Made by a program: the position numbers and the translations under genes. Below are positions 8,924 to 15,893 of a DNA stretch of 20,057 nt, piece after piece; within the stretch, counting starts at the first letter, position 1, and each line of letters starts with the position of its first letter. The notes beneath the pieces are model-generated. The model was not told the origin of the DNA, did not search any database, and saw only the letters and a list, made by a program, of their open reading frames with translations. Source of the stretch: a virus; IMG/VR virus record IMGVR_UViG_3300028394_000382, positions 1 through 20,057 of that record; one strand, written 5' to 3'.

Positions 8924-11230
8924 ATGCACAACTTTTTAGAGTTTATCACGAATTTAGCGCCAGAGGGCGAGACTGCCTTGATTGTGCGCCAAAAGCCACA
9001 GTTGAAGAATGGCGAATTACAGTTGCATGCCGATGGTGCTATTAAATGCACATGGCCTGCGTACTTGCCTAGCCAGAAGATGCGTGCTGGTGAGGCGTGG
9101 TATATCAATACGGCGTCGTTTATCATAGACCGCTTTGAGGATGGACGCGTATCAGCGTCCGCAGCCAACTGCGAGTTTGTATTGTTTATGATGTTAGATG
9201 ACATCGGTACGAAGTCGAAAACACCGCCCCTTGCACCGACATGGATTCTTGAGACTAGTCCTGCTAATTTTCAGTACGGATATGCTTTCTCGGAGCAACC
9301 GACTAAGGGTGAGTTCACGGCAGCAGTCAAAGCCATTGCAGCCGCAAATTACACCGATGCAGGCGCTACTAATGCAGTTCGCAATGTGCGTCTGCCAGGC
9401 TCGATTAACCTAAAGCCTGGGCGTGATAACTTCGAAGCCAAGCTAGTTGAGTTCCACCCTGAGCGTGACTACACGCTAGAGGAAATCTGCACGGCGCTAG
9501 GTGTAACACCCGCCCCTGCCGATACGAATCATTACGCACCGATTAGACTCGCCGACAATGGTGGCGATGATGTGTTATCATGGCTGAATGATCAAGGCAT
9601 GGTATTGTCGAAGATCAACGGCGAAGGGTGGCTTTCAGTCACTTGCCCTAACAACGCCGAGCATACCGATGGCAACCCCGAAGGTCGGTACAAACCCCTA
9701 GATCGTTCTTATTGTTGTCTACACTCGCATTGTGTCGATTTCGGCAGTCAAACATTTCTTGATTGGGTTGCTGCCAATGGTGGCCCTAAAGTTACCCACG
9801 GCCTGCGTGACCAATTGATCGCCGAGGCGATGACCGTAGCGTTGGCTAAGATTACCCCGTCCGATATGTTTACCGATGACGCTGACGCTAAGATTGCCGA
9901 AGTTGAGCGTAAAGAGTTAGGGCGTGTTGAGAAGTCCAAGTGGTATGAGCGTTTTGCCTATGTGCAGGATGACGAATCCTATTTTGATATGCAAGACAGA
10001 CGCGAAGTGTCAAGACAGACTTTTAACGCGCTATTCCGTCATATCAAATGTATGTCAATCCATGCACCGAACACCAGAGTTGAAGCATCTATTTGTTTTG
10101 ACCAAAACAGACAATCATCAGGTGCCAAGGCATTAGTTGGCATCACTTACGCAGCTGGTGAATCCGTGATTGTAACCCGTGATGGTGATCTATATGGTAA
10201 CAGATGGCGTGATGCTCGGCCTAACGTGTCTGATGCAGTTGTTGGCGATATTAGTATGTGGATGGAACATTGTCAAAAGCTCGTTCCTGAACCTGAAGAA
10301 CTTGAGCATGTTTTGAACATCATGGCGTTCAAAGTGCAACATCCTGAGACTAAGATTAACCACGCTGTCTTGCATGGTGGCGATCAAGGTAGCGGCAAAG
10401 ACACCATGTGGGCGCCGTTTATTTGGGCAGTTTGTGGTAGTCATTCGAGGAATCGTGGCATCATGGATAACAACTCCATTAACAGTCAATGGGGTTATCA
10501 ATTAGAGTCTGAAATTTTATTAATTAATGAGTTAAAAGAACCCGACGCTGCAACTCGCAGACAGTTAGCCAATCAACTCAAGCCAATCATTGCTGCACCG
10601 CCTGAGATGCTACCGATCAACCGCAAGGGCTTGCATCCTTACATGATGGCTAACAGACTATTTGTCCTGGCGTTCTCAAATGATCCTGTACCTATCTCAC
10701 TTGATTCACAAGATAGGCGTTGGTTTTGCGTGTGGTCAGCAGCTGCTCGCATGGATCCAACCGAAGCCAAGCAGATGTGGGATTGGTATCGACATGGTGG
10801 TTTCAAGTCGATTGCAGCGTGGTTACACGCCCGTGATATTAGTCAATTCAATCCATCAGCACCGCCTGCCATGACTGAGTTCAAAGCCAACTTGGTTGAG
10901 CATGGCATGAGCATAGCCGAGTCGTTCTTAGTTGAAATGTTACGCGCTCGTAAAGGTGAGTTTGCCAAGGGTGTAATTGGTTCGCCATTACATTCGTTGT
11001 GTGATCGTCTAGCTGGATCAGCGCCTAGTAATGTCAAAGTACCGCAAGCTGCTTTGTTACATGCCCTGAAAGAAGCAGGTTGGGTAGATTGTGGGCGCAT
11101 CAAGTCTAGAGATTTTGACACGAAAAAGCACATCTTTGCTGCACCTGAGTTAGCGTATATCTTGAGTAAGTCAGAGTTAAGGCGAGCGCTTGAGGATAGT
11201 CCGCTTGTGTCTCAAGATGTGCCGTTTTGA
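8924..11230 (+). CDS. Primase-helicase: PrimPol-like domain, zinc finger and SF3-type helicase
   Basis: 768 residues, after a GGAAGGAAA ribosome site. The N-terminal third looks like a RepB/PrimPol-type primase: FVLFMMLDDIG with Asp92 and Asp93 as likely metal ligands, ETSPANFQYGYAF (110-122) and RNVRLPGSINLK (153-164). A zinc-finger pattern follows (Cys241, His247, Cys264, Cys265, His267, Cys270). The C-terminal half is a DUF5906/D5-like SF3 helicase: Walker A GGDQGSGKDT (485-494), Walker B ILLINE (531-536), sensor VLAFSND (581-587) and arginine finger DRRW (597-600). It should prime and unwind DNA for the PolA upstream. It is last in the plus-strand replication operon, and iteron-like repeats begin three bases after its stop. 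Confidence 0.9.
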   Translation: MHNFLEFITNLAPEGETALIVRQKPQLKNGELQLHADGAIKCTWPAYLPSQKMRAGEAWYINTASFIIDRFEDGRVSASAANCEFVLFMMLDDIGTKSKTPPLAPTWILETSPANFQYGYAFSEQPTKGEFTAAVKAIAAANYTDAGATNAVRNVRLPGSINLKPGRDNFEAKLVEFHPERDYTLEEICTALGVTPAPADTNHYAPIRLADNGGDDVLSWLNDQGMVLSKINGEGWLSVTCPNNAEHTDGNPEGRYKPLDRSYCCLHSHCVDFGSQTFLDWVAANGGPKVTHGLRDQLIAEAMTVALAKITPSDMFTDDADAKIAEVERKELGRVEKSKWYERFAYVQDDESYFDMQDRREVSRQTFNALFRHIKCMSIHAPNTRVEASICFDQNRQSSGAKALVGITYAAGESVIVTRDGDLYGNRWRDARPNVSDAVVGDISMWMEHCQKLVPEPEELEHVLNIMAFKVQHPETKINHAVLHGGDQGSGKDTMWAPFIWAVCGSHSRNRGIMDNNSINSQWGYQLESEILLINELKEPDAATRRQLANQLKPIIAAPPEMLPINRKGLHPYMMANRLFVLAFSNDPVPISLDSQDRRWFCVWSAAARMDPTEAKQMWDWYRHGGFKSIAAWLHARDISQFNPSAPPAMTEFKANLVEHGMSIAESFLVEMLRARKGEFAKGVIGSPLHSLCDRLAGSAPSNVKVPQAALLHALKEAGWVDCGRIKSRDFDTKKHIFAAPELAYILSKSELRRALEDSPLVSQDVPF

Positions 11231-11673: not shown

Positions 11674-11772
11674 TTAATACCATCCTTTCGCATAAATCCA
11701 AATTGATGCTAAAACTAAACCCATTAATACGCTGAATATTGCACCTAGTAAATAATCAATTAATGTCTTCAT
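11674..11772 (-). CDS. 32-aa single-TM miniprotein
   Basis: The ATG overlaps the stop of the amidotransferase-like gene (ATGA, 11769-11772) and has AAGGTG about 6 bases upstream. The 32-residue product has a short polar start (MKTLIDY), one hydrophobic helix (about 8-28, LLGAIFSVLMGLVLASIWIY) and a small basic end (AKGWY). This suggests one membrane pass with the C-terminus inside by the positive-inside rule. No family is recognised. It is followed without a gap by a second, 20-residue membrane miniprotein. Co-expression with the amidoligase pair suggests a membrane-linked role for the cassette. Confidence 0.62.
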   Translation of the reverse strand: MKTLIDYLLGAIFSVLMGLVLASIWIYAKGWY

Positions 11773-12806
11773 GCGATCACCTTAATAGAGTTAAAAGAGT
11801 TTTGAGTATTTACGCCATGTCTATCGTATGTCTCTGAATTACCAGATACACGATCTAACCATGGGAACGCTTGTCTGGCGTGATCGTGGTTACGCATGCA
11901 CTTAATAAACCAGTCTTCATTAATGGATTGATCTAAGACCATGTAGGCGATATCAGTAAAACAAGTAAAACTAAACTCATTAATAAAGTCTGTGATCACA
12001 GCTGGATTGATATCTGCCGCACTCAAAAATCCATAGTCTTCAAAGTCCATCAATAGTTGTTCTATTTCGTCTTCGTAATAACTGATATCACCATCATCCA
12101 TCCATGCTGTGCTGAAGTTGTTGCCACGAATTCCATAATTATTATCTAGGGCATATCTGTGAATTACAGGCTTCTCTAATGCTTGTTTAGCGATCTTCTT
12201 TTTATCAGTGATAGGCTTCTTAGATGCTGAAGTTGACGCAGACCATGCATATGTATTGGATAACCACATACCAGACCAATACACGCCACTATCTTTATTG
12301 ATTGTTGCCATGCGACCAGCACCATCCATCAAGACAAATTTATTAGACTTACCAATATGATCTGCCACGATCAGCTTGAAAGCTGGATGGAATGCAAAGT
12401 CTGGATTTTTACATAACATGGGTTTTAGATAATCATTGATGTAGTGCCATGTATCAGACTTGTTTGGATTGGCTTTATTACCCGTTGACAAAATGCCATT
12501 GTGCATAAGCCACATATCCAGACCATGTTCTTTTTTATTAAGGACTGGATATGGATGACAGTTGTCAAGATCAATGTTGCCATGTGTTCTCATGCGAAGA
12601 TGCCATGCACAATTTTTACCCTTGATATTTTGATTGTAAAAATTTACTAGGTCTTGATCAGTTTTAGGCAACAATTTTTTGACAACAATATTACCCTTGT
12701 CCACATACATCACGCCTACACCATCACTATTAAAACTATAGAAGTCTTCTAACCAGTCTGTATGTAAAACTGGAGTTTTGTTTGTTTGAGTTATTAATAA
12801 GCACAT
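11769..12806 (-). CDS. Class II glutamine-amidotransferase-like (Ntn hydrolase) protein
   Basis: 345 residues. The second residue is Cys, as needed for the N-terminal nucleophile after Met removal. Family landmarks follow: DGVGVMY (28-34), WHLRMRTHGN (68-77, like the HxRxATHG block), NCHPYPV (82-88) and LMHNGIL (100-106). These match the glutaminase domain that frees ammonia from glutamine. The C-terminal half (about 200-345) is acidic and not recognised, with no synthetase or sugar-isomerase domain attached. It directly follows an amidoligase gene (25-base gap, AAGGAAAA ribosome site), so ammonia or amide transfer to the ligase's product is a reasonable inference. The DNA is A/T-richer than the replication genes. 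Confidence 0.85.
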   Translation of the reverse strand: MCLLITQTNKTPVLHTDWLEDFYSFNSDGVGVMYVDKGNIVVKKLLPKTDQDLVNFYNQNIKGKNCAWHLRMRTHGNIDLDNCHPYPVLNKKEHGLDMWLMHNGILSTGNKANPNKSDTWHYINDYLKPMLCKNPDFAFHPAFKLIVADHIGKSNKFVLMDGAGRMATINKDSGVYWSGMWLSNTYAWSASTSASKKPITDKKKIAKQALEKPVIHRYALDNNYGIRGNNFSTAWMDDGDISYYEDEIEQLLMDFEDYGFLSAADINPAVITDFINEFSFTCFTDIAYMVLDQSINEDWFIKCMRNHDHARQAFPWLDRVSGNSETYDRHGVNTQNSFNSIKVIA

Positions 12807-12831
12807 ATTTTATGTTTTCCTTGTTTATTGA

Positions 12832-14157
12832 TTAAGCTACTTTTCTTAGATGGTCTGGACATACTGTAGGCATCCCACAAACCATATCAAAACCCTTGTT
12901 TTTAAGATAAACCCTTAAAAATCGAGTATCAGACTTGTTTTGTGGCATACAAATAAACTGAATAAACTGTTCAGTTGTGAGTTGATCTATACCAGCATCC
13001 TTACAAAAATGCCATGTGGCGTAAGTAAACTCTAAACATGCCATGATCGTCTCATACTTTAAAGAACCCTTAAATAATCTGAATTCAATGGTTTTATCGT
13101 TATTAAAATTCAATGCTTCATAACGATCACTATTCAAACCCCTAAGTTGACTATGTTTATCTTTTTTATGTCTAACCACATCTTTTAACCATGAAGTATC
13201 AGACTTTTTATCTTTAATTTTTCCATAACTAGCATCTCTTCTTGCTACTGCTTTGATCAGCTGGTAGTTGTTTGTATCATTGATAAAAAACACCATCTTC
13301 GCACCATGTAGGGTAGACATATTCGACTTGCAGATATGCACATGAAGTCCACATGTTTCAGTATTGTGGGATGCCATTCCCTTGAAAGTATGCTTAAAAA
13401 ACTGTAGCTGATCTTTATGCACATCCAGACCTGTATACCCTGTCACCATCTCAAACCCATCATCCAGAGAACCATCCTCTTCGCATAAGGCATAAGTCTG
13501 CCCACGATAGCTACCAATAGCATCCAGCAAGTGTCCTGCCCTACTATCCTTATCATAATCTTCATGCTTGCATTCCATCTCTAATTCCAGACCTAAGAGA
13601 ACCCTAGGGCTTCGTTGATCAAAGCTGGATGGGATATGCCCTAGTCTTCGTTTTGATGAATGATAGCTACCAATATGCTCATGTTCCCTATCGTCATCTT
13701 CGTCATCCGTATTATCTTGATAGTTATTATTACGATCAGACCAATAATAGTTATGTCGACAATTATCACAGACTGAATAATCATCATTGACATTGTGTGC
13801 TTCATTGTCGCTGTCCAAATGCCCACAATCGTTACATTCAAAGTAATACCCATCAAAATGTTCACTTAAAGTGTCATTCCAATTCTTAGTATTTCTGAGC
13901 CATCTATTGTCATTTAAATAACCACAAACTTCTAATGCGGCTTCGTAACTACCATCTTTTTTAAGACTGTTAAACATCTTCCCAAAGTCGACCAAAACTG
14001 ATCGTCTAGCTATTCGACCTACTAGATCAAGACCACGATAAATAGCTTCGTTGTTTGATTGATAGTATTGGCGTGGGTTTAAATTACATCTAATCTTTTC
14101 TCTTATTGCACTAAGAGAATGATTATGATTTTTTCTTAAATACAGTATGTTGTGCAT
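12832..14157 (-). CDS. Amidoligase (COOH-NH2 ligase family) with N-terminal Cys4 zinc knuckle
   Basis: 441 residues. The C-terminal two thirds show the amidoligase pattern related to the glutamine-synthetase fold: LLGLELEME (187-195, Glu191 and Glu193), EEDGSLDDGFEMVT (226-239), CGLHVHI (269-275, His272 and His274) and RYEALNFNNDKTIEFRLFKGSL (345-366). These are the metal- and ATP-binding positions of ligases that join a carboxylate to an amine. Ahead of it lies a zinc knuckle with Cys108-x2-Cys111 and Cys130-x2-Cys133, and an acidic linker (DDEDDDREHEH, about 151-161). Residues 1-100 are unrecognised. AGAAAGG precedes the ATG. It is first of a four-gene minus-strand operon with a glutamine-amidotransferase-like partner. 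The substrate is unknown. Confidence 0.88.
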   Translation of the reverse strand: MHNILYLRKNHNHSLSAIREKIRCNLNPRQYYQSNNEAIYRGLDLVGRIARRSVLVDFGKMFNSLKKDGSYEAALEVCGYLNDNRWLRNTKNWNDTLSEHFDGYYFECNDCGHLDSDNEAHNVNDDYSVCDNCRHNYYWSDRNNNYQDNTDDEDDDREHEHIGSYHSSKRRLGHIPSSFDQRSPRVLLGLELEMECKHEDYDKDSRAGHLLDAIGSYRGQTYALCEEDGSLDDGFEMVTGYTGLDVHKDQLQFFKHTFKGMASHNTETCGLHVHICKSNMSTLHGAKMVFFINDTNNYQLIKAVARRDASYGKIKDKKSDTSWLKDVVRHKKDKHSQLRGLNSDRYEALNFNNDKTIEFRLFKGSLKYETIMACLEFTYATWHFCKDAGIDQLTTEQFIQFICMPQNKSDTRFLRVYLKNKGFDMVCGMPTVCPDHLRKVA

Positions 14158-14258
14158 TTGTTGCCTTTCTTACTTTAGTTTAGATTAGTGAATTTTTACT
14201 GCTGTGTTACTTCTATGATTGTAACAAAAATTGTTGTGCTTGCGTGGTTTTGTTGTTT

Positions 14259-14620
14259 TGTGGATATGTTGTGGACTGAATGTGGGTTTAATGTGGGTAT
14301 AGAGAAATGGGTTTGAGAGATATATAAAACCTAGTTTGTGGGTAATGTGGATAACTATGAAGTCTATATGCTAGTAGATTGATTTTTGATGTATGGGCAT
14401 GTGTCTGGATCGCTGTATGCACGACAGCGTTACCAGCTATTCGTGCGATTTAAAACACCATGTCCACATTGTCCATTTGTCCACACTTTTCCCTTTCCCT
14501 AAAGTGTGGGTAATGTGGATAACCCTAAAACATAATGTCCACATAACCCACATAATAATTATCTAGACTATATAAATACCTACTTAAAACATTATGTCCA
14601 CACTACCCACATAACCCACA
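14259..14620. repeat. Array of DnaA-box-like 9-mers, candidate origin or operator region
   Basis: TGTGG cores start at 14259, 14270, 14281, 14292, 14337, 14346, 14505 and 14514. The reverse, CCACA, starts at 14464, 14481, 14539, 14548, 14598, 14607 and 14616. Two boxes (14346-14354 and 14514-14522) read TGTGGATAA, the exact complement of the classic DnaA box TTATCCACA. Each is joined head-to-tail to TGTGGGTAA, making a perfect 19-bp direct repeat (14337-14355 and 14505-14523). An AT-rich stretch at 14551-14593 lies between the last two clusters. No gene is present. The array lies between divergent promoters, so it may also regulate the flanking operons. Confidence 0.75.
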
Positions 14621-14704
14621 ACGGATTATGTTTGTCTGTATGTGTCTGGTTTTTGTTTGTTTGTCAAACATGAGACAAACACCATGTTAGTTAAGGCTTA
14701 CTAA

Positions 14705-14762
14705 CCATAGGGCAAAAACTTTTAGCATGGGGGGGGTAGGGCCAAGCCGAACGGCCCTATGG
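14705..14762. repeat. Mutually exclusive stems upstream of the terminase operon
   Basis: GCCCTA at 14754-14759 can pair with either of two TAGGGC copies. The long-range stem is CCATAGGGC (14705-14713) with GCCCTATGG (14754-14762), nine perfect pairs. The local hairpin is TAGGGCC (14737-14743) with GGCCCTA (14753-14759), seven perfect pairs and a nine-base loop. The two cannot form at once. The G8 run sits between the two left arms. Confidence 0.6.
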
Positions 14763-14767
14763 CGGCG

Positions 14768-14797
14768 GAGCGTTTGCTCAAACTTTTTATTTTTTTT
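14768..14797 (+). terminator. Weak terminator-like hairpin plus T-tract before terminase
   Basis: GAGC-GTTT-GCTC (14768-14779) forms a short four-pair hairpin and is followed by AAACTTTTTATTTTTTTT up to 14797. The stem is short for an intrinsic terminator, and the T-run begins four bases after it. With the competing stems just upstream it could act as an attenuator for late transcription, or be an AT-rich promoter spacer. Confidence 0.3.
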
Positions 14798-14832
14798 ACA
14801 AACTGCCAAAAAATCTATGATAAGATTCCACC

Positions 14833-15291
14833 ATGTTTGATAACTTTCATTCCTATGTGTATGAGCCACGCAAGCTAGAAGCTACCGAGGCTAGATTGCA
14901 ACGCATATACGATGCTGCCAAGTTAGGACTCAAAGGCGACACACTTGCCCTTGCTGCGGGGATGCGCCCTACCGAATACCGACAGCTTACGCAACTAGAT
15001 CCCATTGCGGAGTATGCTGAACAAAAAGGCAAAGCCGATGGCGAGATGGAGTTATCAGCGATACTGCACAAAGCCGCAGCCGATGGCGACGCTAAAGCTG
15101 CGCTAGAAATTCTCAAGCACCAGCATGGCTGGGTAGCTAAACAACAACTGTCAATAGATGTTGAGCAACGCATCTCAATTACAGCCGCACTCGAACAAGC
15201 GCAACAGCGCGTCATCGAAGGCGTGTTCAAACAAGTGGATAATACCGAAATGCTCCACGTGAAACCTCAACTCAAACAAAAGGTGGCGTAA
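14833..15291 (+). CDS. Probable terminase small subunit
   Basis: 152 residues. The N-terminal part (EATEARLQRIYDAAKLGLKGDTLALAAGMRPTEYRQL, about 16-52) reads as a helix-turn-helix of the kind small terminase subunits use to bind packaging DNA. The middle (AEQKGKADGEMELSAILHKAAADGDAKAALEILKHQHGWV) is helical and typical of TerS oligomerisation regions. The role is supported by its position two genes ahead of the large terminase. The ATG at 14833 has no Shine-Dalgarno (GATTCCACC precedes it). The stop overlaps the next gene by TAATG. Assignment is by context and general pattern, so another DNA-binding packaging factor cannot be excluded. Confidence 0.75.
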   Translation: MFDNFHSYVYEPRKLEATEARLQRIYDAAKLGLKGDTLALAAGMRPTEYRQLTQLDPIAEYAEQKGKADGEMELSAILHKAAADGDAKAALEILKHQHGWVAKQQLSIDVEQRISITAALEQAQQRVIEGVFKQVDNTEMLHVKPQLKQKVA

Positions 15292-15893
15292 TGGCGGATA
15301 AAAGACAGAATGTTAATTCGTTAAGCAAGATGTTGTTTAACGATGATTCAAATGATCGTTACCCTAGTGTAAGTAATGAGTTGCGTAATGCGCTAATGAT
15401 GCAAGAGATAATGGGGCCTGAAACCAGATCGAGCAATCCGAATGTTGCGCCGTACGGTGGCGAGCGTCAGTTCTTGCCAGCAACCAACATACCACTACGC
15501 TATAACCCAGATGTTGATTTAAATTTGTTTACGCCGCAACCGCCGCCTCAGTTTAATACGTCAATTCGAGATGAGCGAGCGCAACAGTTAATGCAAGATG
15601 TACCGCAAGGAACTAACATTTACAACCAAGGGCCGATGAATATGCCACAGGCATTATTGGGGCAACTGCGCGGAAGTACACCACTTGGCCCAGGCATGGC
15701 ACGTGTCGGCGCAACGGGTATAGCGGTACAGATGCCAAACGGGTCAATTAAGTATATGCCCAATATGTATGAAGGTGGATATGGTATGCCGTTCTTGGGT
15801 GGTAGGCTAGATGTGTCAGGCAACATGGGCGCGCAAACAATGCCGCAACGAATGTACGGTGGGAATGTGCGTTTTAGCAAAGAATTTGATTAA
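15291..15893 (+). CDS. Hypothetical Pro/Met/Gly/Asn-rich protein between terminase subunits
   Basis: 200 residues, joined by TAATG at both ends to the small and large terminase genes, so it is surely translated with them. The N-terminal 40 residues are polar and partly helical (NSLSKMLFNDDSNDRYPSVSNELRNALMMQEIMG). The rest is rich in Pro, Asn, Gln, Gly and Met and looks largely disordered (TPQPPPQFNTSIR, MNMPQALLGQLRGSTPLGPGMARVG, MYEGGYGMPFLGG). There is no catalytic motif, signal peptide or membrane segment. It could be a minor structural or packaging-associated protein. No family is recognised. Confidence 0.75.
   Translation: MADKRQNVNSLSKMLFNDDSNDRYPSVSNELRNALMMQEIMGPETRSSNPNVAPYGGERQFLPATNIPLRYNPDVDLNLFTPQPPPQFNTSIRDERAQQLMQDVPQGTNIYNQGPMNMPQALLGQLRGSTPLGPGMARVGATGIAVQMPNGSIKYMPNMYEGGYGMPFLGGRLDVSGNMGAQTMPQRMYGGNVRFSKEFD

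Follow-up and report, generated by a model that had tools for sequence, protein, structure and literature searches.

A repeated word changes in step with the wing segment of a primase-helicase at a putative replication origin of related freshwater phages

Introduction

Among the systems that most resemble the locus described here is the P4 alpha protein. A primase and an SF3-type helicase are joined in it, and the origin repeats are bound by a winged helix at its C-terminus (PMC4234260, citing Ziegelin & Lanka, 1995, and Yeo et al., 2002). Paired change of an initiator domain and its iterons is already known from two further systems. In the Vibrio satellites termed PLE, the DNA-binding domain of RepA covaries with the origin iterons, and exchanges of these modules have taken place on repeated occasions; their cognate specificity was proved in swap experiments, and the exchanges are believed to be driven by a phage nuclease that cuts the origin (PMC8263062). 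In geminiviruses, as described in papers on the iteron-related domain, a short segment of Rep is paired with a short repeated word that differs among close relatives (PMC12548392). The genome of phage NrS-1, which encodes a primase-polymerase, holds only two copies of an 8-nt recognition sequence and no array (PMC7102993).

The window analysed here, by which we mean the whole stretch of DNA, is a 20,057-base virus record from a podovirus-like phage with a P22-like portal, TerL, a family-A polymerase and a primase-helicase. The latter resembles P4 alpha in that a primase, an SF3 helicase and a C-terminal winged helix, the last of these predicted, occur in one protein; short words are likewise repeated in a non-coding region, and the specificity of the initiator appears to match these repeats, as judged by covariation. 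The two differ in that the N-terminal part is of the Toprim type in P4 alpha and of the RepB_primase type (Pfam) here, and in that the word varies across the phage family studied here. P4 also has crr, a second site, whereas no second word cluster was found in the loci and records that we searched, with the exception of locus L125, in which the array runs past the excised region; in records of 32-39 kb, the word pairs cluster at a single place. PLE RepA shares the paired change of DNA-binding domain and iterons, but it is a RepA_N protein without a predicted primase or helicase, both of which are found here, and PLE has two specificities compared with the 55 distinct wings with a determined word reported below. 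Geminivirus Rep shares the segment/word pairing but is a rolling-circle Rep of single-stranded DNA plant viruses, unrelated to the phage primase-helicase. NrS-1 has a related SF3 helicase domain, but its two recognition copies contrast with an array of 15 words. What is new here is the type of protein, the number of variants, a signal confined to the wing and the partial predictability of bases from residues. We found no earlier report of wing/word pairing in these phages in the open-access literature, although such an absence is weak evidence.

Organization of the array

The features of the locus are collected in Table 1. The original prediction had placed 15 TGTGG/CCACA cores in the array, and each was found where it had been reported. 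This is far above chance: dinucleotide shuffles give an expectation of 40 cores per 20 kb, or about 0.7 per 362 bp, and when the same intergenic region was simulated 5000 times under a Markov model, the richest 362-bp stretch held a mean of 2.3 and a maximum of eight cores. As 9-mers, the words comprise TTATCCACA (twice), TTACCCACA (twice), ATGTCCACA (three times), TTGTCCACA (once) and seven looser variants, arranged as <<<< (45) << (117) > (17) > (25) << (24) >> (50) >>>. The regularities that had been described in this region also hold. Four cores are spaced by 11 bases (14259, 14270, 14281 and 14292), 9-base steps occur at 14337/14346, 14505/14514, 14539/14548 and 14598/14607/14616, and the 19-nt sequence TGTGGGTAATGTGGATAAC recurs exactly at 14337-14355 and 14505-14523. 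The array is indeed non-coding and lies between divergent genes, approximately 100 bp from the start of a leftward amidoligase gene (14157) and 210 bp from that of the rightward terS (14833). Two perfect DnaA boxes had also been claimed; TTATCCACA is present at 14346 and 14514 (minus strand), but 'DnaA boxes' alone show no excess, because TTWTNCACA occurs five times across the whole window compared with 2.9 expected.

Table 1. Positions of the array, its parts and the proposed reader in the window
Feature	Position	Strand	Description or basis
Primase-helicase, 768 aa, proposed array reader	8924..11230	+	Pfam domains, structure match
C-terminal winged helix (aa 650-768), proposed origin-binding domain	10871..11227	+	Model of the domain alone, mean pLDDT 82
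Wing loop codons, aa 727-733 (KSRDFDT)	11102..11122	+	Covaries with the array word
Iteron array	14259..14620	.	15 words of the TTGTCCACA class
Left block	14259..14354	-	Six words: 11-bp steps in the first four, a 9-bp tandem pair after them
Central gap, ~110 bp	14355..14459	.	AT-rich left part, inverted repeat, then CGATTTAAAAC before the right block
Right block	14460..14620	+	Words mostly plus-strand, one inverted tandem pair at 14505-14522

The central gap is a candidate melting region, and a gap of about 110 bp is found in most of the relatives of the TGTGG and TGACCCAAA classes for which layouts are shown. L016 has retained its inverted repeat, CGCTGT-ATGCACG-ACAGCG at 14409-14428, and L003 has a slightly changed form of it. 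No hits were obtained when the window or the array was scanned for Rfam families, tRNAs, sigma-70 promoters and terminators.

Exchange of the word among relatives

Related loci were gathered by TerL (80 loci), and the relatives carrying the array are freshwater phages. Many of these loci, to TerL identities as low as approximately 79%, also have an array upstream of terS, and comparison reveals the words TTGTCCACA (the class of the window), TTGTCAAAT, TGACCCAAA, TGACCCACA, TGACTAACA, TAGCCAACA and TTGTCCATA. At 98-99% TerL identity about half of the phages have no TGTGG core at the array site and carry TTGTCAAAT/TGACAATT repeats there, and we therefore conclude that the site has been kept while the word has been exchanged. 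The orientation and spacing of the words are similar between classes with unrelated words, as illustrated by L062 of the TGACCCAAA class, < (44) > (44) << (108) >> (43) << (20) >> (48) >>>; the alignment of the TTGTCAAAT class to the common layout is less clear. A lack of conserved box spacing in relatives had been named as evidence against the original prediction, and since the layout is conserved this evidence did not appear.

In close pairs of different word type the array regions are 53-63% identical, compared with mostly 87-96% for terS at the DNA level; in the phages with 98-99% TerL identity the word has been replaced as a block, and identity in the array region is 56-62%. In the same pairs the differences within the primase gene are concentrated in the last ~300 bases, which encode the predicted winged helix. 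The pattern fits word switching by exchange of two modules about 3 kb apart.

The primase-helicase and its C-terminal domain

The primase-helicase contains an N-terminal RepB_primase domain (aa 85-168), a DUF5906/SF3 helicase domain (aa 483-599) and a predicted C-terminal winged helix. The helicase domain matches that of the NrS-1 primase-polymerase (PDB entries 6k9c/6k9e) with an E value of 5.5e-5. AlphaFold2 models of residues 424-768 and 650-768 have the order helix-strand-helix-helix-strand-loop-strand, which is that of a winged helix, and place residues 727-733 in the wing, formed by the loop that joins the final two strands. The preceding helix, corresponding to the recognition helix, is conserved and much less variable than the wing. 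The structural neighbours of the C-terminal domain are winged helices, although the similarity is weak (best Foldseek E value 0.096, best Z score 6.6); a fold search of the PDB by Foldseek and VIA gave generic low-score winged helices, and the P4 origin-binding domain was not among the matches listed.

Covariation of wing and word

In close relatives the primase segment divides by word type, reading GR[IL]KSR[DE]FDTKKH in one and GRLASADFKSKKH in the other. Comparison of 14 TGTGG loci with 14 TTGTCA loci gave four perfectly separating columns in the primase, at residues 727 (K/A), 729 (R/A), 732 (D/K,T) and 733 (T/S). No separating column was found in TerS, TerL, the ORF after TerL or the portal in the same 14 and 14 loci, or in PolA in the eight and five loci available, and TerS, TerL, the portal and PolA were rejected as genes that track the word; the best TerS column makes nine errors in 28. 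The comparison covers those genes that enough contigs of both types contain; to the left of PolA, no gene is reached by more than one contig of the TTGTCA type.

Two further scans extended the set to 139 distinct segment/array pairs with about ten words. KSR..D wings pair with TTGTCCACA, KSRAHTT with TGACCCACA, ASADFKS with TTGTCAAAT, ASG and ASS wings with TGACCCAAA or TGACCCATG and MSR wings with TGACTAACA; KSSLHDT, in which serine replaces Arg729, is found with TTGTCCATA and not TTGTCCACA. The association of Arg729 with C at base 8 of the word is strong (fourfold count 70/5/0/57, p = 6e-32); a few Arg729 arrays (L020, L101, L109 and L141) have degenerate words. On a primase tree built without the C-terminal domain Arg729 changes about 15 times, and in the supported independent pairs on that tree the word changes the same way in 6.2 of seven on average and the opposite way in none. 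Across 330 residues, the highest mutual information with base 8 is that of residue 729 (1.01 of 1.27 bits), and with bases 2, 3, 4 and 6 that of residue 732, in a calculation that ignores kinship and leaves out the divergent lineage described below and a few non-word rows. The corresponding rules for Lys727 and Asp732 hold only in part.

Three more scans provided a held-out set of 129 new distinct loci, including many unseen segments. With the same Arg729 rule and word grammar the fourfold count was 36/5/0/13, and no word could be called at 75 loci, where words starting with a left half included in the grammar were too scarce. A wider grammar, which was set after the held-out words had been seen, gave 82/0/5/16, and all five exceptions belong to one divergent lineage with the wings FAPELST, LAPEIPT and AAEELPT and the words GTTTACAT. 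We note that this lineage (wings FAP/LAP/AAE/HAP; L399-L412) carries a stand-alone Bac_DnaA_C protein of ~98 aa near the primase (31423-31719 in L475), which might read the array in these phages. Taken on sequence comparison, the repeated word changes in step with residues 727-733 of the primase-helicase in related freshwater phages, and since it tracks a patch of seven residues the letters of the putative origin are partly predictable from the protein.

Proposed function and alternative explanations

The array is, with good confidence, an iteron array that most likely serves as the replication origin, and its probable reader is the primase-helicase that the phage itself encodes, acting through the wing of the predicted C-terminal winged helix. 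We propose it as an origin by analogy with P4 alpha, which binds its origin repeats with a winged helix, unwinds the DNA and primes synthesis (PMC4234260). In this model the winged helix would bind the array with the wing loop KSRDFDT reading the 9-bp word, and occupation of the inverted blocks that flank the central gap would place SF3 helicase rings. These rings would melt the DNA and the attached primase would prime synthesis, as P4 alpha does at the P4 ori; replication would start at the array. Joint exchange of the wing and word modules would leave every phage lineage with an origin specificity of its own. The origin reading had been part of the original prediction, and here the repeated initiator sites fit it well and the layout is conserved, but its host-DnaA component finds no support. 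GC skew gave no consistent support for an origin: a local minimum lies about 300 bp from the array in the window, but this is not so in most relatives, and in most of those longer than 20 kb the minimum is 4-5 kb away.

The alternative that the array recruits host DnaA as an origin, or titrates it, draws on the two perfect boxes and on the class consensus TTGTCCACA, which is one base off the Escherichia coli DnaA box and matches the actinobacterial one. Against it, near-identical phages carry arrays at the same position made of non-DnaA words such as TTGTCAAAT. Arrays of the TGTGG class contain a mean of 0.77 TTATNCACA boxes, 69 of the 111 lack them altogether and the other classes have nearly none. 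Moreover, the word follows a phage protein, the primase-helicase. Word exchange and the absence of TTATNCACA from most arrays lead us to reject host DnaA as the common reader, and we consider a host-DnaA site in the window highly improbable; the array is very probably a landing array for the phage's own replication enzyme.

An operator through which the primase-helicase or another phage regulator controls the divergent operons, with no origin function, would suit a position between divergent genes. The leftward gene, however, varies among relatives while the array stays, no sigma-70-type promoter was called in 14100-14900 (scans of this kind are weak) and the combination of primase, SF3 helicase and winged helix is that of a replication protein; we regard a pure operator as unlikely, although autoregulation may exist on top of origin function. 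The array could also be a packaging (pac/cos) site to which the product of the neighbouring gene, the terminase small subunit, would bind. A position immediately upstream of terS would suit this, as would the distinct conserved G-tract element that lies between the two. TerS, however, stays largely identical across the word switch and none of its columns separates the types, and this explanation appears extremely improbable.

Most studies of initiator-origin specificity have only two or three natural variants to work with. In the present case 55 wings are paired with words in a conserved protein and layout, and how a replication protein changes its origin sequence without loss of function is therefore directly testable. 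The pairing could also be used to find the likely origin of hundreds of phages that have not been cultured, and it warns that clusters of 'DnaA boxes' in phage genomes can be look-alikes. We suggest, tentatively and as a possibility that we do not favour outright, that one phage family holds dozens of origin specificities, read by a few wing residues via a partly predictable code, in which Arg729 goes with C8 and residue 732 with bases 2-4, and kept diverse by selection, for example against satellites, nucleases that cut the origin or competing phages by which an origin word is targeted or shared.

Neighbouring elements

A scan of a genome collection for hosts returned only seven binned metagenome contigs with mixed assignments. 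The conserved element between the array and terS (14727-14795) consists of a G tract, GTAGGGCC...GGCCC and then a T run, and variants occur in relatives of several word classes. This element might serve in packaging or in termination; no terminator was called there by the scan. To the left of the array, the leftward genes for a putative amidoligase and a class-II glutamine amidotransferase (11769-14157) form an accessory cassette, which was found elsewhere only in L016, one of the 82 other loci searched. An ORF of 200 aa without a family match lies between terS and terL (15291-15893); it is seen in a few relatives (L020, L030 and L041) and is missing from most. Finally, a 60-aa protein (1503-1685) matches sigma-70 region 4 and other helix-turn-helix models and is possibly a small phage transcription regulator.
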